From Sandaracinus amylolyticus (GTDB lineage Bacteria > Myxococcota_A > Polyangia > Polyangiales > Sandaracinaceae), in the NCBI RefSeq assembly GCF_021631985.1, contig NZ_CP070225.1:7068001-7132000 (forward strand): DNA of 64,000 bases, in the 5' to 3' direction. The notes beneath the pieces were generated by a model. The model had not been told where the DNA came from. It worked only from the letters and a program-made list of their open reading frames with translations, and made no database searches. The position numbers and the translations under genes were made by a program. This document shows, in pieces, positions 55,708 to 64,000 of this stretch (position 1 is its first letter; the number at the start of each line of letters is the position of its first letter).

Positions 55708-56034
55708 TCAGTGCGGACCGCCGCTCGCGTGGAGCACGACGACACCGGCGATGATCAGCGCGATCGCGACCACCTTGGGCACGGTCAACGCGTCACCGAA
55801 GAACGCGAGCCCGATGACCGTCACCGCCGCCGTGCCCAGGCCCGACCACACCGCATAGGTCGTGCTGAGATCGAGCCTCTGGATCGCCTGGCTCACGAGG
55901 CCGAACGAGCCGAGATAGCCCAACATCATCAGCACGCTTGGCACGGCCCTGGTGAAGCCCTCGGACAGCTTCATGCAGGTGAACGCGCCGACCTCGCACA
56001 CGATCGCAGCGATCAGCAGGAGCCAGCCCGACAT
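55708..56034 (-). CDS. Small multidrug resistance (SMR) family transporter
   Basis: A 108-residue protein with four helices and the SMR signature: membrane Glu in AIVCEVGAFTCMKLSEGFTR (conserved Glu-14 of EmrE), LSTTYAVWSGLGTA and VPKVVAIALIIAGVVVL. Works as a dimer driven by proton exchange, exporting cations or hydrophobic compounds. It lies 17 bases downstream of the methyltransferase gene and may export the product of the isoprenoid operon. EmrE-like rather than the guanidinium exporter type, by AYAVWSG-like residues; not certain. Confidence 0.9.
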   Translation of the reverse strand: MSGWLLLIAAIVCEVGAFTCMKLSEGFTRAVPSVLMMLGYLGSFGLVSQAIQRLDLSTTYAVWSGLGTAAVTVIGLAFFGDALTVPKVVAIALIIAGVVVLHASGGPH

Positions 56035-56051
56035 GCGCGCCGCCCTTCGAT

Positions 56052-56870
56052 TCAGGAGCGAGCCGACGTCGGTTTGAGCGCGCGGATCACCACGTAGCCC
56101 GCGAGGCCGCTGCGCACGAGGCGGGCGAGCGCGCGGAGCAGCGCGCCGTCGGTCCAGCTCAGCGTCGAGAGCACTCCGCGTCGCTCGGCCCACTCGTAGA
56201 ACGCGCCGATCGTCTCGTGACCGACGTGCTCGATCGCGACGTCGACGAACCCGACGTCCTCGAGGATCAGCCGGTACGTGTCCGCGGTCCACACGTTGGC
56301 GCGCGGCACCGACGTCGCGCGACAGAGCAGCTCGATCGCGGCCTGCTCCATCAAGTCCCGGCTCGGCCGGCAGATCACGGAGTCGACCAGGCCGAGCGTG
56401 CCTCCCGGCACGAGCGTGCGAAACGCTTCTTCGAGGAAGCGTCGTCGCGGGCGCATGTGGTCGGCGCCTTCGATGCAGATCGTGTGGGTGAATTGCGCGC
56501 TCGCGAAAGGAAGCGCGGTGCCACTGCCGTGGTGGATCGCGATCGCGCCGGAGGCGCCCGACATTCGCACTCGCGCTCTCGCTCGGTGCACCGACTCGCG
56601 CGCGAGATCGACTCCATCGATCACACATCCGAACGTCCGATGGAGCAGCACTGCCGGTGCTCCCACGCCGCACGCGACGTCGAGGACGCGGCTCGTCCTC
56701 GACAGCCCGATGCGCCGGCCCAGCGAGAGCACCAGGTTCGCGCACGCGTCGCGATGGTCGTCCGTGCTCTGCGTCCAGAGCCCGAAGCTGAGATGACCCT
56801 CCGAAGCGTGCTCGTGATGGCGGTTCATCGCCTCGTAGAGAATCGCGTTCGTGCGTTCCTCCGCTCGCAT
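56052..56870 (-). CDS. SAM-dependent methyltransferase
   Basis: A 272-residue class I methyltransferase. Motif I VLDVACGVGAPAVLL (SAM-binding), then IDGVDLARESV, ALPFASAQFTHTICIEGADHM and PGGTLGLVDSV. The N-terminal region (NRHHEHASEGHLSFGLWT) resembles small-molecule and sterol/ubiquinone-type methyltransferases. ATG 56870 has a ribosome site (AAAGGAAGGGC). A 132-base gap separates it from the prenyl synthase gene, so it may have its own promoter. It could methylate a terpenoid intermediate; substrate unproven. Confidence 0.88.
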   Translation of the reverse strand: MRAEERTNAILYEAMNRHHEHASEGHLSFGLWTQSTDDHRDACANLVLSLGRRIGLSRTSRVLDVACGVGAPAVLLHRTFGCVIDGVDLARESVHRARARVRMSGASGAIAIHHGSGTALPFASAQFTHTICIEGADHMRPRRRFLEEAFRTLVPGGTLGLVDSVICRPSRDLMEQAAIELLCRATSVPRANVWTADTYRLILEDVGFVDVAIEHVGHETIGAFYEWAERRGVLSTLSWTDGALLRALARLVRSGLAGYVVIRALKPTSARS

Positions 56871-57002: not shown

Positions 57003-58058
57003 TCATCGCGATCGCTGACCCAGCGCGGTCAGCGCACCGAGCAATGCGCTCCGCCCGCGCTCGCGAAGCGGAGCGTCGCGCAGTGCGTCTCGACTCTGCG
57101 TCAGGAGCTCTTCCAGACGTGACTGGAGCCGCGCCCGCGCCCCGCGCTCGATCATCTGCGAGACGACCTGCTCGATCTCGCCATCGCTCGCGTCGACGCG
57201 CCCGAACACCCGGGACAAGAGCGGGCGAGACACGTCGTCCTCGAACAGATCGAGGACGAGCGCAGTGCGTTTTCCACGACGGATGTCGGCGCCGACGGGC
57301 TTGCCGGTCACTCGGGGATCGCCGAAGACGCCGAGCAGATCGTCCCGCAGCTGGAACGCGATCCCCAGCGGGCCGGCATAACGATCGAGCGCGACGCGCA
57401 CGCTCGACGTGGCCGACGCGAGCGCTGCGCCCATCCGCACCGGACCCAGCGCCGTGTAGCTCGCAGTCTTCAGCGAGTGCACCAGCTCGACGTCCTCGCG
57501 ACCGAGCGCGGCCGCGTGCACGTCCAAGATCTGCCCGAACACCACGTCGCTCTGGGTGGAAGCGAAGATGCGCGCGCACTCCGCGATCCGATCGGACGGG
57601 CCCTGCTGCGAGAGCAGCTCCGACTGCGCCAACGCAATCGCCAGATCACCGGCGAGGATCGCGGACACCGCGCCTGCGTGCTCCGACTCGAACGTGCGGC
57701 CGAGCTCCGCGTGCACGCTCGGTCCGCCTCGTCGCGTCTCGTCCTGATCCATCCAGTCGTCGTGGATCAGGAAATACGACTGGAGCAGCTCGAGCGCGAC
57801 GCCCGCCTTCGTCACCGCGCGCACGTCGTCGTCGTCGCCGGCTGCGACGTACGCCGCCGCGAGCATCGCAGGACGAAATCGTTTGCCGCCCCGCAGCGTG
57901 ATCGCCCGGAGCGACCTCGCGGTCGCGAAGGTCGCCGGGCCATATCTCGCCGCACGTTCGCAGAGCACATCGAACCGCGCCTCGAGCTCCGCGTCCACCG
58001 CGCGGCGGGTCGCGTCGAGGAGCGCCTCGAACGACTCACGCTCTCGATCGATGCTCAT
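57003..58058 (-). CDS. Short-chain prenyl diphosphate synthase
   Basis: A 351-residue trans-prenyltransferase that condenses IPP with allylic diphosphates. First Asp-rich motif DDWMD (100-104) with Tyr95 and Phe96 just before it, which in this family limit product length, suggesting C15 (FPP) rather than longer. RGGKRFRPAM, second Asp-rich motif FQLRDDLLGVFGD, and KPVGADIRRGKRTAL are present. ATG 58058 overlaps the stop of the DVDDTA gene (ATGA). Operon with HMG-CoA synthase, IPP isomerase and MVK-HMGR. Confidence 0.93.
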   Translation of the reverse strand: MSIDRERESFEALLDATRRAVDAELEARFDVLCERAARYGPATFATARSLRAITLRGGKRFRPAMLAAAYVAAGDDDDVRAVTKAGVALELLQSYFLIHDDWMDQDETRRGGPSVHAELGRTFESEHAGAVSAILAGDLAIALAQSELLSQQGPSDRIAECARIFASTQSDVVFGQILDVHAAALGREDVELVHSLKTASYTALGPVRMGAALASATSSVRVALDRYAGPLGIAFQLRDDLLGVFGDPRVTGKPVGADIRRGKRTALVLDLFEDDVSRPLLSRVFGRVDASDGEIEQVVSQMIERGARARLQSRLEELLTQSRDALRDAPLRERGRSALLGALTALGQRSR

Positions 58059-59062
58059 GACGTCGCCCGCAGCGCATCGACCAGCGAATGTCGCGCGCTC
58101 GAGCTCTCTCCGAGCAAGAAGCGCTTCGAATAGTCGACGCACAGACCCGGCAGCGTCGCGTTCATCCACTGGAGGTTGTAGCCGTGGACGTAGGTCAGTC
58201 GTTCGTCCCCCGCCCAGCGCGAGCGGATCTCGTTCGACTCGAGCTGATCCAGCTCACGCTCGAGATGACGCCGGAGCACGTCGCGCGAGCGCTCGGTCAA
58301 GAACGGCCGATGCGCGCGGTCGTAGAACAAGAGCAGGAAGACCCCGACCACCTTCGGCTCGTAGTACATCATCAGGTCGAGGTACCGACCGGGGATCGAG
58401 GCGTTGATCAGCTTCTGGTTCTCTTCGAAGACACGTCGCTGCAGCTCGTTTCCGTCTTCGGGGAGCGCCGTGATCATGTTCGCCATGCAGAGCAGGTCGC
58501 AGTCCCACTTGTGCCAGTCCGCGTGCTCCCAGGTCCGCAGCACGAATCGGCGGTCGACCTTCGCTTCGATCGCCGCATCGTGAAAGCGTCGCGGCAGCGT
58601 GTCTCTCGAGAGGAACGGGCGCAGCTGCTCGTCGCCGGCGGGCCGACCGCGGTACTTGAGCCACCACGCCGTGTCGTCGACGTCGTGCACGATCTTGGTC
58701 GGCCGCCGCCCGCGGAAATACGGCCGCCCACTCGTCAGCTGCGACTCCTTCCACCACCCGCAGAGCGTTCCGTCTCCGAACTCCGCCAAGTGCTGCTCGA
58801 GCTCACGATCGATCGCCAGCGAGAGCCCCCGGCGGATCAGGGTCTCGAGCAGGTGGAATCCATTGAGGTCGTGGAGGCGCGCTCGCACGGTCCCGCGGCG
58901 ATCGACGAACACGACGTAGTTGCCGGGATCGAAGGGCTGCGCCGCACTCTCGTCGATCGGCGCTCCGACGAGCCAGCCTCCGACTTCGTCGGCGACTGCC
59001 ACCAGCTCGTCGCGAATCTCCGTCCACTTGATCTCGAAGAGCTTCTCCAGCCAATAGGGCAT
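58055..59062 (-). CDS. Unrecognised protein with DVDDTA motif in isoprenoid operon
   Basis: 335 residues from ATG 59062. Mostly helical, rich in Trp and His, with no signal. Residues 127-132 read DVDDTA within KIVHDVDDTAWWLK. That is the DxDDTA of class II terpene cyclases, whose second Asp protonates the substrate; it also fits the DxDxT of HAD phosphatases. Other blocks: NGFHLLETLIRRGLSL, EHADWHKWDCDLLCMANM, YVHGYNLQWMNATLPGLCVDYSKR (quoted by its YNLQWMNAT part). No other cyclase motif is clear. Position between MVK-HMGR and prenyl synthase, with ATGA overlap, argues for a role in terpene formation. Function is unproven. Confidence 0.75.
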   Translation of the reverse strand: MPYWLEKLFEIKWTEIRDELVAVADEVGGWLVGAPIDESAAQPFDPGNYVVFVDRRGTVRARLHDLNGFHLLETLIRRGLSLAIDRELEQHLAEFGDGTLCGWWKESQLTSGRPYFRGRRPTKIVHDVDDTAWWLKYRGRPAGDEQLRPFLSRDTLPRRFHDAAIEAKVDRRFVLRTWEHADWHKWDCDLLCMANMITALPEDGNELQRRVFEENQKLINASIPGRYLDLMMYYEPKVVGVFLLLFYDRAHRPFLTERSRDVLRRHLERELDQLESNEIRSRWAGDERLTYVHGYNLQWMNATLPGLCVDYSKRFLLGESSSARHSLVDALRATS

Positions 59063-59085: not shown

Positions 59086-61245
59086 TCACTCGGCCGCCAT
59101 GACTTGAGAGCGGTTGTGCAGGGACATGTGTCCTCGCTGGATTCCCTCGCACGCGAGGGCGCGCAGCGCGGCGAGGTTCGACGCGAGCCCGACGGACGCG
59201 ATGACTCCCGCGAGCTCCTGCGCGCTCGTCACACCGAGGATCTTCACGGCGAGGCGCGCCCCCGGATGCACTCTCGAGGTGCCGCCGACCGTCCCGACCG
59301 CCATCGGCATCGCGAGACTTCCGTCGAGCGACCCATCGCGGCCCACACGCCAGATCGCGAGCGGCTCGTATCGATTGCGGCGTGCCGCATAGGCGTGCGC
59401 GCCCGCCTCGACCGCACGCCAGTCGTTGCCGGTGGCGATGGTCACGGCGTCGATGCCGTTCATGACACCTTTGTTGTGAGTTGCTGCGCGATAGGGATCG
59501 AGCTCGGCGAACTGACTCGCACGCACGATCCCGTCGCGAACCTCCTCGCCCTGCCAGCGCGTCGTGTCCAGCGCCCGCGCGGGAATCGAGCAGCGTGCTC
59601 GCACCATCCGGCGATCGGCGAGATTCGACAGGATGCGCAGGCCCGGTCGCCCGCCGAGGATCGACGCGACGTCGCCCGCGAGGCTCTCGGCGAGGGTGTT
59701 CACCATGTTCGCGCCCATCGCGTCGCGGCAGTCGACGTGGAGGTGCACCACGACCATGCCCGGCGCGCCGGGTCGGCTCGGAGCGAGCACGCGGGCCTCG
59801 AGCCCCCGTGCGCCTCCCCCGCGGCGCACCAGCGAGGCCAGGATCTCGTCGGCGCGTCGCAAGAGGCGCTCGCGATGCTCGTCCAGGCGTCGCTCCGCGG
59901 CGCCCGTGTCCGCGACGTCGAGCACCTGGAGCTGTCCGATCATCACCGGCGGGTCGGTCTCGGTGAAGAACCCGCCCCCCGCGCGCACCAGCTTCGCGGC
60001 GTTCGACGCAGCGGCGACGACCGACGGCTCCTCGACGCACATCGGGACGAGATGGTCCTTCCCGTCGACGCGGAAGTTGAGCCCGAGCCCGATCGGGAGC
60101 GCATAGAGGCCCACGACGTTCTCGACCATCTGATCGGCGATCTCGAATGACAACGATCCGCGATCGAGCAGCGCTGCATCGCCCTCGTCGAGCTTGCCGC
60201 GCTGCACCAGCTCGTTCCGCCGCTCGCTCAGCGTGAGCTCATAGAAGCCGGGGATGCGCGACGAGGCTCGGTCCCCCCGCGCGCGCTGCGAGCTCCCCGG
60301 CTCGTCCACGCTCGCGTCGCTCGAACGATCGAGCGTGGTGATGAACGCGTGGAGCCCGGCGCGCGCCCAGGCCTCTCGGACGCGCTCGAGATCCGGCGCG
60401 ACCGCGATCACGCATCCACCGCCGCCCGCGCCCGTCAGCTTCGCACCGAGCGCACCGTGCTCGAGCGCGATCTCACGGAGCGCTTCGATCTCGACGCTCG
60501 AGACCCCGAGCCAATCGAGCTCCTGGTGATTGCGGGTCATCGCTCCACCGAGCGCGGCGAGGTCGCCGTCGGTGATCGCGCGAGCGCCGTCGGCCACGCA
60601 CGTCGCGATGCGATCGAAGCTCGCGAGGACCCGCTGGGGCTCCCGCTCGAGCTGACTGCGGACGCGCGCGATCATGCTGCGGCTGCTCCGGGTGTGTCCG
60701 GTGAATCCGACGCACAAGCGGAGCGCCGGCGCGCTCGACGCCGGGAAGCGCCTCAATCCGTCGGCCGTCGTGTACAGCGCCAAGCCACCGTGCTGCGCGA
60801 TCGCCTGATCGATGCCCGACGCCTGGCCGTGGAACACCGCCTCTGCCGCATTCGCGCTCGCGGCGATCGACTGCGGATCCCGGCTTCCCGTCGCCGCGCG
60901 CAACACGGCCCGCGCGAGCGCCGTCGAGAACGCGGCCGAGCTGCCCAATCCCGTCCCCGGCGGCAGCTCGAACTCGACGTGGAAATCCCAGTGGAGCGCG
61001 GAGCGCGCGACTCCGGCCACACGCAGGATCTCGTCGAATGCCGTCGCGATCCGGCCATGGTCTCCGTCGCTCGAATCACGACCGGGCGTCGACACCGAGA
61101 GCCGTCCGGTGCCCGGAGCCACCGAGACCGAGACGCCGCGCTCGATCGCCGCGACGAGCCCGGGCCGTCCGTACAACACGGCGTGCTCGCCGAAGAGGAT
61201 GATCTTTCCGTGTGCGCGCTCGCTCCAACGCAGTGAGTCCGTCAT
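59086..61245 (-). CDS. Bifunctional mevalonate kinase / class II HMG-CoA reductase fusion
   Basis: A single 719-residue frame holding two enzymes of the mevalonate pathway. Residues 1-about 305: mevalonate kinase, GHMP fold, with RAHGKIILFGEHAVLYG, ATP loop PPGTGLGSSAAF (95-106) and KLTGAGGGGCVIA. Linker about 306-328, charged and Ser-rich. Residues 329-719: HMG-CoA reductase, SRIPGFYELTLSERR, ENVVGLYALPIGLGLNF, DCRDAMGANMVNT, ATHNKGVMNGIDAV and the catalytic His in GHMSLHNRS. ATG 61245 overlaps the fni stop (ATGA). The reductase makes mevalonate and the kinase phosphorylates it. No stop or frame break separates the parts. Confidence 0.92.
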   Translation of the reverse strand: MTDSLRWSERAHGKIILFGEHAVLYGRPGLVAAIERGVSVSVAPGTGRLSVSTPGRDSSDGDHGRIATAFDEILRVAGVARSALHWDFHVEFELPPGTGLGSSAAFSTALARAVLRAATGSRDPQSIAASANAAEAVFHGQASGIDQAIAQHGGLALYTTADGLRRFPASSAPALRLCVGFTGHTRSSRSMIARVRSQLEREPQRVLASFDRIATCVADGARAITDGDLAALGGAMTRNHQELDWLGVSSVEIEALREIALEHGALGAKLTGAGGGGCVIAVAPDLERVREAWARAGLHAFITTLDRSSDASVDEPGSSQRARGDRASSRIPGFYELTLSERRNELVQRGKLDEGDAALLDRGSLSFEIADQMVENVVGLYALPIGLGLNFRVDGKDHLVPMCVEEPSVVAAASNAAKLVRAGGGFFTETDPPVMIGQLQVLDVADTGAAERRLDEHRERLLRRADEILASLVRRGGGARGLEARVLAPSRPGAPGMVVVHLHVDCRDAMGANMVNTLAESLAGDVASILGGRPGLRILSNLADRRMVRARCSIPARALDTTRWQGEEVRDGIVRASQFAELDPYRAATHNKGVMNGIDAVTIATGNDWRAVEAGAHAYAARRNRYEPLAIWRVGRDGSLDGSLAMPMAVGTVGGTSRVHPGARLAVKILGVTSAQELAGVIASVGLASNLAALRALACEGIQRGHMSLHNRSQVMAAE

Positions 61246-62321
61246 CGCGCTCTCCCTTCCGCCGACAACCACGCATTCAGCCTCGGCCCCATCACGCGCG
61301 GGACGTCCCGCAGCCGACTCGGTGACTCGCTCCCGGTGAGGAACGTGATCGCGCGCACCGCGTCGATGACGTCGCGCAGGTACTCGACCGCTCCGTCGTA
61401 TCCACCTTCCTGCTGAGCGCGAAGGACGGGCGCCGCGAGGCCGCCGAGCGTCGCGCCGAGGGCCAGCGCGTGCGCCACGTCGATGCCGGTTCGGAGCCCC
61501 CCCGTCGCGACGACCTCCAGTCCGGCCTCGGCAGCCCAGACGACCGATGGCGCCGTCGGAATGCCCCAATCCCACAGGGCCTCGCCCAGACGCTTCGTCG
61601 CGCCGCTGACGCGCCGGGCCTCGACTGCCACCCACGACGTGCCGCCGGCACCACTGACGTCGACTGCACGCACGCCGACTTCACGCACCGCGCGAGCGAC
61701 ACCGAGCGAGATCCCACAACCCGTCTCTTTGACGACGACCGGCGTGGGCAGCTCCCGCACCAAGCGCTCGAGCGTGCGCAGCCCGTCCGTGAAGTCGCGA
61801 TCGCCGTGAGGCTGGATGAGCTCCATCGCGGGATTGAGGTGGATGCACAGCGCGTCCACCTGCGCACGCTCGACCAAGCGGCGCACGTCGTCGGTCGACA
61901 TCGCGCGCGCCTGGACGATCCCGAGGTTCCCGAGGATCACCGTGCTCGGCGCGACGTCGCGGACCTCGTACGTGTCCGCGCTCTCCGGACGCAGCGCCAT
62001 CGCGCGCTGTGACCCGAGCCCGAACGCGATGCCGAGCGTCTCCGCGGCACGCGCGAGATCACGATTGATCGCGCGAGCGTCCGCCGTGCCACCGGTCATC
62101 GCGCTGATGACGATCGGCGCCCGCAGCGTCTTGCCGAGGAAGGTGGTGCGGAGATCGACGTCACTCACCCTCCGCTCCGAGAGCGCGTGGTGGACGAGAT
62201 CGACCTCCTCGAGGAGCGTGCTCTTTCGCCGGAACTCCGAGTGACGATCGACGCAGAGTCGGATGTGGTCCTGTTTGCGCCCTTCGATCAGCTGCGCTTG
62301 TTCGTCGTGAGGCGGGGACAT
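61242..62321 (-). CDS. fni: Type 2 isopentenyl-diphosphate isomerase
   Basis: A 359-residue FMN/NADPH-dependent enzyme that interconverts IPP and DMAPP. Markers: RKQDHIRLCV, APIVISAMTGGT, FGLGSQRAM, HLNPAMELIQPHGDRDF, VVVKETGCGIS, DVSGAGGTSWVAVE and the phosphate-binding TGGLRTGIDVAHALALGA. It starts at ATG 62321, overlapping the HMG-CoA synthase stop (ATGA). Length and motifs standard. Completes the supply of both C5 units in the operon. Confidence 0.95.
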   Translation of the reverse strand: MSPPHDEQAQLIEGRKQDHIRLCVDRHSEFRRKSTLLEEVDLVHHALSERRVSDVDLRTTFLGKTLRAPIVISAMTGGTADARAINRDLARAAETLGIAFGLGSQRAMALRPESADTYEVRDVAPSTVILGNLGIVQARAMSTDDVRRLVERAQVDALCIHLNPAMELIQPHGDRDFTDGLRTLERLVRELPTPVVVKETGCGISLGVARAVREVGVRAVDVSGAGGTSWVAVEARRVSGATKRLGEALWDWGIPTAPSVVWAAEAGLEVVATGGLRTGIDVAHALALGATLGGLAAPVLRAQQEGGYDGAVEYLRDVIDAVRAITFLTGSESPSRLRDVPRVMGPRLNAWLSAEGRAR

Positions 62322-63811
62322 CACGCCACCTCTTGTTCGCCGGCGCCGTCGTTCGACAGATACTGGTAGTACCGGTATCCGTGATCCGTCAGCTCCGGCG
62401 TCGACAGCCGCCCGAGGCGCTGCAGCACGAACTCGTCGCGCGGCGGATGCACACTCGGAGGCGGGCCGACGAGCACGATCTCCTCGCCGGCTCCGTTCGC
62501 CGCTTCCGCGCTCGCGACGACCTCCTCGTGCTCGTGCAGGCGCTCGTACTCGGCGACCGAGATCGCGATGCGCCGGCCACCCTCGGAGACGGGACGGAGC
62601 TCGGTGCCGTAGTGGCGCGCCGCGACTCGCTTCCACTCCGGACCGACGGTGCCCGAGAACACCTTCGCGCTCGCGCCGCTCCCGTAGGAGCACAAGAGGA
62701 CTCGTCGCCCCGTCAGGTCGACTCCATCTCTGCGCGCGGCATCCGTCATGCTGGCGAACGCGAGATAGAGCGACGCCGAGTACACGTTGCCGATCTCACC
62801 GGGCAGCTCGAGCGAAGGCGCGACCGTCCGCTCGAAGTGCGCACGGAAGAAATCCGTCTTCATCAGGCGCTTCTCGAGCTCCCGCGTGTCGTCGGGCGCG
62901 AGCCCCGCCGCGAGCTCTCGCATCCGCTCGCCGTGGGACTCGCTGCCCTCCCACATCAGGCGGAACACGCGCGCGGCGGCGTACTCCGCCATGCGCGGGA
63001 ACGGGACGTGGAACAGGAACGAATCGAATTCCGCGAGGAGCTGGCGCACGGAGGCGATCCCCGGCTCGAGGCCGCGCCGCGCACCAGCGCGGTCCAGGTG
63101 CTCGCGCAGCGCGTCCTCCAAGCACGAGAGATAGACGTCGATCGAGTGCTTCCCGTCGACGGTCGCCGTGCGGCTCCAATTCGGACGAAAGAAGTCGCGC
63201 GCGTCGCGGGTGGCAGTTCCGACGACGCCGGGATCCAGCGCGAGCAACCGCGGGCTCTCGCTGACCAGCATCGCGACCGCGCCCGCGCCCTGGGTGTACT
63301 CGCCGGGGCTGCGAAGTCGGTACTTCGAGATGTCGGTCGCGATCACGATCGCATAGGGACGCGTGTTCTCGCCCGCCCTCAGATGATTGACGGCCGACTC
63401 GAGCGCATAGGTCGCGCCGATGCATGCGAACTGCACCTGCGGCGTGCCGACGTGACGGAGCGACTTCCCGTAGTGTCGCTCCAACATGCCGAGCACGTAC
63501 GCGGCGATCGACTTCGACTGGTCGACCGTCGTCTCCGTCCCGACCGAGAGCAGCTCGATGTCGGAAGGATCGATTCCCGTCGCGTCGATCAGCTGCTTGG
63601 CGGCCATCGCCGCCATCGTCGCGGCGTCCTCGTGGCCATCGGCGACCGCCATCTTGCGGATCCCGATCCCCGCCACGAGCTTCCCACGCAGCAAGTCGGG
63701 CGAGCCGATGCCGAGCTGCGGCGCGCGCACCGCGCACCATTCCTGCGTCAGATCCACGTACAGCCTCGGCACGTACAGCGAATAAGCGTCGATTCCGAAC
63801 GTCCGTCGCAT
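62321..63811 (-). CDS. mvaS: HMG-CoA synthase
   Basis: A 496-residue thiolase-fold enzyme that condenses acetyl-CoA with acetoacetyl-CoA. Catalytic residues are in place: Glu93 in GTETTVDQSKS, Cys130 in VQFACIGATYAL, His268 in FLFHVPFPRM. Also GSGASAKVFSG. It is about 100 residues longer than common bacterial HMG-CoA synthases (near 390), with a C-terminal extension from about 400 including NGAGEEIVLVGPPPSV. First gene of the isoprenoid operon, with its start 98 bases from the partial gene stop upstream and an inverted repeat between. Call is firm; the extension is unusual. Confidence 0.93.
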   Translation of the reverse strand: MRRTFGIDAYSLYVPRLYVDLTQEWCAVRAPQLGIGSPDLLRGKLVAGIGIRKMAVADGHEDAATMAAMAAKQLIDATGIDPSDIELLSVGTETTVDQSKSIAAYVLGMLERHYGKSLRHVGTPQVQFACIGATYALESAVNHLRAGENTRPYAIVIATDISKYRLRSPGEYTQGAGAVAMLVSESPRLLALDPGVVGTATRDARDFFRPNWSRTATVDGKHSIDVYLSCLEDALREHLDRAGARRGLEPGIASVRQLLAEFDSFLFHVPFPRMAEYAAARVFRLMWEGSESHGERMRELAAGLAPDDTRELEKRLMKTDFFRAHFERTVAPSLELPGEIGNVYSASLYLAFASMTDAARRDGVDLTGRRVLLCSYGSGASAKVFSGTVGPEWKRVAARHYGTELRPVSEGGRRIAISVAEYERLHEHEEVVASAEAANGAGEEIVLVGPPPSVHPPRDEFVLQRLGRLSTPELTDHGYRYYQYLSNDGAGEQEVA

Positions 63812-63908: not shown

Positions 63909-64000
63909 CTACTGGCGCGCCTCGACGAGCTCGGCGCCCGCGCCGGGCGAGAGCGTCAGGACGCGCTGCACACCAGGAACGCTCGCGAGCGCCCGAGCCA
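63909..64000 (-). CDS. 3' end of an unidentified gene
   Basis: The minus-strand frame from the window edge to TAG at 63909-63911 encodes about 30 residues ending LTLSPGAGAELVEARQ. Codon third positions are strongly G/C like real genes here. It is too short to identify. It precedes the isoprenoid operon on the same strand and may or may not belong to it. Confidence 0.5.
   Translation of the reverse strand, partial: ARALASVPGVQRVLTLSPGAGAELVEARQ

Follow-up and report, generated by a model that had tools for sequence, protein, structure and literature searches.

The question raised by this locus is which reaction is catalysed by P0001, a protein carrying the motif DVDDTA that is encoded within a mevalonate operon of a soil bacterium, in the 64,000-nucleotide stretch of DNA analysed here (the window). 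A sequence-only reading had described a 335-residue protein with DVDDTA at residues 127-132, placed between an HMG-CoA reductase (HMGR) fusion and a short-chain prenyl synthase, and had considered either a class II terpene cyclase or a HAD-type phosphatase. Its description of the protein agreed with translation of the minus-strand frame, and the position was confirmed by the family matches of both neighbours (Table 1).

The gene and its operon

P0001 is a genuine gene and not a chance frame, because its third-position GC (0.863) falls within the range of its neighbours (0.838-0.881) and above the 0.665 of the long opposite-strand frame, and most changes relative to its two relatives fall on third codon positions; codon-position bias and the relatives together ruled out a chance frame. 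The gene starts 23 bases past the stop codon of the fusion, and its own stop codon overlaps the start of the prenyl synthase gene as ATGA. The minus-strand gene order is orphan membrane protein, diphosphomevalonate decarboxylase, HMG-CoA synthase, type 2 isopentenyl diphosphate isomerase, mevalonate kinase-HMGR, P0001, prenyl synthase, methyltransferase, and SMR exporter.

The fusion consists of mevalonate kinase and a class II-type HMG-CoA reductase in one protein of 719 aa. The same genome, of which the window is C1:7068001-7132000, has another mevalonate kinase/HMGR region at C1:6773978, where the match contains a stop codon, and the P0001 operon is therefore an extra, dedicated mevalonate supply. 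Mevalonate kinase and HMG-CoA reductase are encoded by separate frames in both relatives and in the other copy of this genome. The product of the prenyl synthase had been read as FPP from the residues before DDxxD; Y-F at positions -5/-4 does fit FPP, but among solved structures its best relatives include both a GGPP synthase and an FPP synthase, and either chain length is possible. The methyltransferase and SMR exporter genes (55708-56870) lie directly 3' of the prenyl synthase gene, where they would fit methylation and export of a cationic product such as the sandacrabins; neither was seen in the operons of the two relatives.

Table 1. Features of the P0001 locus, with coordinates in the window unless another sequence is named
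Feature	Coordinates	Strand	Remarks
SMR-type (EmrE-like) exporter	55708..56034	-	PF00893, E 1.1e-26
Small-molecule SAM methyltransferase, downstream	56052..56870	-	PF13649; best PDB matches RebM-like 3bus, MitM
Short-chain polyprenyl diphosphate synthase	57003..58058	-	PF00348, E 2.5e-50; best PDB matches 3lk5, 8f8f; ATG overlaps P0001 stop
P0001, orphan DxDD protein, proposed stand-alone class II terpene cyclase	58055..59062	-	335 aa, ATG to TGA
Invariant block LMMYYEPKVVG, residues 230-240	58343..58375	-	Second longest invariant run; Y233/Y234, proposed acid-orienting tyrosine
Invariant block WHKWDCDLLCMANMI, residues 183-197	58472..58516	-	Longest invariant run; K185 proposed phosphate contact, N195 proposed acid-orienting
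DVDDTA, residues 127-132	58667..58684	-	Within invariant block VHDVDDTAWW, 125-134; D129 proposed general acid, D127 partner
Mevalonate kinase-HMG-CoA reductase fusion	59086..61245	-	GHMP and PF00368; TIGR00549 and TIGR00532
Type 2 isopentenyl diphosphate isomerase	61242..62321 (approximate)	-	Named from sequence; sole support an FMN_dh match
HMG-CoA synthase	62321..63811	-	PF01154 and PF08540
Diphosphomevalonate decarboxylase, 3' part	63909..64000	-	Continues past the window; orphan seven-helix membrane protein next
Orphan seven-helix membrane protein	C1:7132926-7133549 (L006:2927-3550)	-	207 aa; just past the right end of the window; seven hydrophobic segments

Distribution and the companion membrane protein

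Two relatives, 61 and 60% identical to P0001, were identified in two genomes from another family (G427 and G433). Both were located through a search with the neighbouring HMGR, which the relative follows in each genome; among the 19 best HMGR loci outside this genome, a DVDDTA gene was alongside in 2 only. Direct searches with P0001 gave no relative in the genomes of its own family or in 379 Myxococcota genomes, and no further relative was present in 108 genomes of the family of G427 and G433 or in 290 genomes of the class. Two weak matches among these 290 (E about 6e-4) were rejected as chance, one being a frame antisense to an ABC transporter gene and the other an open frame unrelated to P0001. 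No relative was found in plasmids using tblastn, or in broad genome collections and a viral scan using exact matches of 7-8 residue peptides, a search compatible with distant relatives in other phyla. Among the genomes sampled, the family has so far been found in three myxobacterial genomes only. Separately, small lipoprotein-like proteins of ~356 aa with IDVDDTA, VNANVY, and YFYPG are encoded in two other genomes (G298 and G205; L082 and L083), and are apparently single-domain class II-like cyclases in other myxobacteria.

Mevalonate genes and a prenyl synthase gene stand beside the P0001 gene in all three genomes. G427 and G433 share the operon throughout the stretch that begins with the membrane protein and ends with the prenyl synthase, and a GHMP kinase (probable phosphomevalonate kinase) comes next. 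LytTR-type two-component regulators and an RND efflux system are encoded near this kinase in both lineages (L006:4264-13233; L029:11126-19880), which suggests regulation of the cluster and export of its product.

The membrane protein belongs to a family of 207-221 aa with seven hydrophobic segments and the invariant Asp-rich loops IDLHxDD and DEKLNDxMD. It had no family match in Pfam or NCBIfam, and it was present in the same three genomes as P0001, out of 140, and in all three operons; the two orphan families travel together. The membrane protein could be a prenyl transferase or a cyclase partner. A Pyr4-like transmembrane cyclase was considered and rejected, since there was no match to PF25129 at E 10, a model that other genes of G427 and G433 do match. 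The published gromomycin core (GroD, GroH, and GroF, the last Pyr4-like with DLADPD), from the myxobacterium Pendulispora albinea, is like the P0001 operon in combining a prenyl synthase gene with unannotated proteins that include a membrane protein. A relation to GroF or GroH was unsupported: the Pyr4-like genes of G427 and G433 lie elsewhere, in neighbourhoods lacking relatives of P0001 or of the membrane protein.

Sequence, fold, and invariant residues

P0001 had no Pfam match even at E 10, no NCBIfam match, and no related PDB sequence, in agreement with the earlier observation that the rest of the protein is not recognisably a cyclase. Profile comparison with class II cyclases using hhalign gave P values of 0.036-0.12 over 12-15 columns around the motif only, whereas under the same conditions true class II families recognised one another with P below 1e-7. 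Membership in the class II superfamily is left unsupported, since the alignment is confined to the motif and falls short of significance. P0001 lacks the glycine/tryptophan repeats found in most class II cyclases.

Two AlphaFold2 runs gave mainly helical models without HAD-type strands, at pLDDT values (35 and 43) too poor for assignment of a fold such as the alpha6-alpha6 barrel of class II beta domains; with three sequences, a helix begins at residue 128, next to D129. Foldseek with the low-pLDDT model gave no match at E 0.001 and no terpene cyclase, the 14-3-3 and other helical proteins returned at E above 0.3 being meaningless given the model. VIA-align reached Z values of at most 7.0 on the weak model; its matches mixed a few alpha/alpha toroids (complement TED, transcobalamin, GH105, LanC-like) with 14-3-3 and unrelated helical proteins, and are not evidence by themselves.

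DVDDTA is unchanged in 3/3 family members, and the three longest invariant runs of the alignment are those with DVDDTA, K185/N195, and Y233/Y234. The pattern D-x-D-D-T-[AG] arose in 136 of 200,000 shuffles of the residues of P0001. K185 and N195 are 10 residues apart, N195 and Y234 39, and K185 and Y234 49, and 208 residues extend from DVDDTA to the C-terminus. A K-N-Y pattern, which was picked post hoc, was obtained from shuffled invariant residues in 0.3% (strict) to 6% (loose) of trials.

Among the closest parallels are the HAD-TCbeta drimane synthases AstC and AacA (fungal) and AsDMS (Aquimarina), in which class II chemistry takes place in one beta domain. Their DxD(D/T) motif, the Asn and Tyr (or Tyr alone) that orient the acid, and the Lys or Arg that contacts phosphate are spaced similarly to the putative counterparts in P0001. 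According to published work, the FPP cyclase AstC is a one-domain helical barrel (TC domain 200-475) in which N324 and Y361 orient the acid D273 of the motif D271xD273T and K314 holds the alpha-phosphate; the mutants K314A, N324A, and Y361F lost nearly all or all activity. The corresponding residues of AsDMS are D331/D333/Y427 and R378. Using residue numbers taken from the papers and no alignment, the K-N-Y spacing is 10 and 37 in AstC and 10 and 39 in P0001, R378 and Y427 of AsDMS are 49 apart as are K185 and Y234, and the motif lies 204 residues from the C-terminus in AstC-TC (208 in P0001), but the acid-to-tyrosine distance is longer in P0001 (105, against 88-94 in AstC and AsDMS). These enzymes also differ from P0001 in their motif, DxDT(T) instead of DxDDTA, and in an N-terminal HAD domain; in P0001 only ~65 of 335 residues precede the helical part, and there is no HAD match.

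DVDDTA is itself the motif of hopene cyclase; the squalene-hopene and oxidosqualene cyclases (PF13243) are, however, two-domain proteins with G/W-rich repeats, and the profile alignment with them covered 14 columns at P 0.1. The earlier expectation that a cyclase this small would be new did not hold, since class II cyclases of one domain are known in MstE, and the isolated AacA-TC and AstC-TC domains, ~270 residues long, are active alone. Like P0001, MstE (merosterolic acid synthase, PDB 6SBC) has one domain, an acid Asp motif, and no gamma domain; no sequence similarity between the two was detected in the PDB sequence search, and the P0001 gene, for its part, adjoins that of a prenyl diphosphate synthase. 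The substrate of MstE is a prenylated aromatic acid.

Proposed function and its alternatives

P0001 probably works like a class II cyclase, the best of the readings considered. For the more specific proposal, a stand-alone class II cyclase of highly divergent sequence with FPP or GGPP as its substrate, belief and doubt are about evenly balanced. Of the original cyclase suggestion, the invariant DxDDTA, the helical prediction, the AstC-like K/N/Y spacing, and the coupling to a prenyl synthase stand in favour, while homology was not recovered by Pfam, NCBIfam, PDB, or hhalign searches.

The other suggestion, a HAD-type phosphatase that would have DVDDT for its DxDxT motif and a prenyl phosphate for its substrate, is decidedly unlikely and fared poorly. 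KIVHDVDDT resembles motif I by eye, and HAD domains do occur together with terpene cyclases, but no HAD model was matched even at E 10, neither weak model has a strand before the motif or later, residues 128-335 are predicted to be helical, and motifs II, III, and IV are not clear. The residue after T in HADs is usually bulky and aliphatic, whereas in P0001 it is A.

A class I terpene synthase, or some other all-helical pathway enzyme in which DVDDTA is coincidental, is a doubtful reading, although the all-helical prediction, a low-confidence model that fits several helical folds, and the DD followed by aromatic residues would agree with it. The motif cannot be read as DDxxD or DDxxxE, the only NSE-like stretch (N277..S281) has lost its Asn in both relatives, and there was no class I Pfam match; a class I synthase proper was rejected because DDxxD and NSE/DTE are not conserved in the three-sequence alignment.

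It is rather improbable that P0001 is instead a non-cyclising prenyl transferase, whose aspartates would hold FPP for joining to a small acceptor, possibly in the N-farnesylation of 5,6-dimethylbenzimidazole in the sandacrabins. The sandacrabins of S. defensii MSr10575 are reported to be bis-farnesylated dimethylbenzimidazoles with two open-chain farnesyl groups, for which the N-farnesyltransferase was not found, and the host is taken as this strain. The cluster brings mevalonate genes of its own and what is probably an FPP synthase, its methyltransferase could be related to the methylation of sandacrabin C, and its SMR exporter to sandacrabins B and C, which are lipophilic cations. Lipophilic cations are exported by the SMR class. 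Against a transferase, DxDDTA is not known to have a role in prenyl transfer, the membrane protein with its pair of Asp-rich loops is an equal or better candidate, and G427 and G433 have the core but neither the methyltransferase nor the SMR gene.

From the gene, its invariant residues, and the conserved operon, all of which are observed, we infer a fold, residue roles, a substrate, and a product for the class II reading as follows. P0001 would be a single-domain, protonation-initiated terpene cyclase of very divergent sequence, receiving FPP or GGPP from the synthase encoded immediately downstream and drawing on the dedicated mevalonate pathway. The proton for the terminal double bond would come from D129, with N195 and Y234 orienting this acid. 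The cascade would be terminated by D127 or a different base, with the diphosphate held by K185 and the invariant arginines R119, R120, R282, and R288. The product may be a cyclic prenyl diphosphate of the drimenyl or labdane type, which would be passed to the co-conserved membrane protein. A bolder version, also doubtful, is that the family comprises terpene cyclases or prenyl transferases that share no ancestry with those already known. Having arrived at DxDD acid chemistry on their own, they would act with an equally new membrane partner, within a dedicated mevalonate operon, to make an undescribed terpenoid (in S. defensii possibly the sandacrabins).

What is new is the P0001 family, which has no named relative in Pfam, NCBIfam, or PDB, together with its membrane companion; the small size of a cyclase is already known from MstE. 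The operon encodes a whole terpenoid pathway with its own precursor supply, in which the enzyme that forms the skeleton is unseen by Pfam and NCBIfam, and clusters of this kind probably escape genome mining. If P0001 is a cyclase, the class II enzymes would gain a one-domain member of very divergent sequence, which could serve as a new seed for searches, and as a hypothesis the cluster is a candidate locus for farnesyl transfer in sandacrabin biosynthesis.
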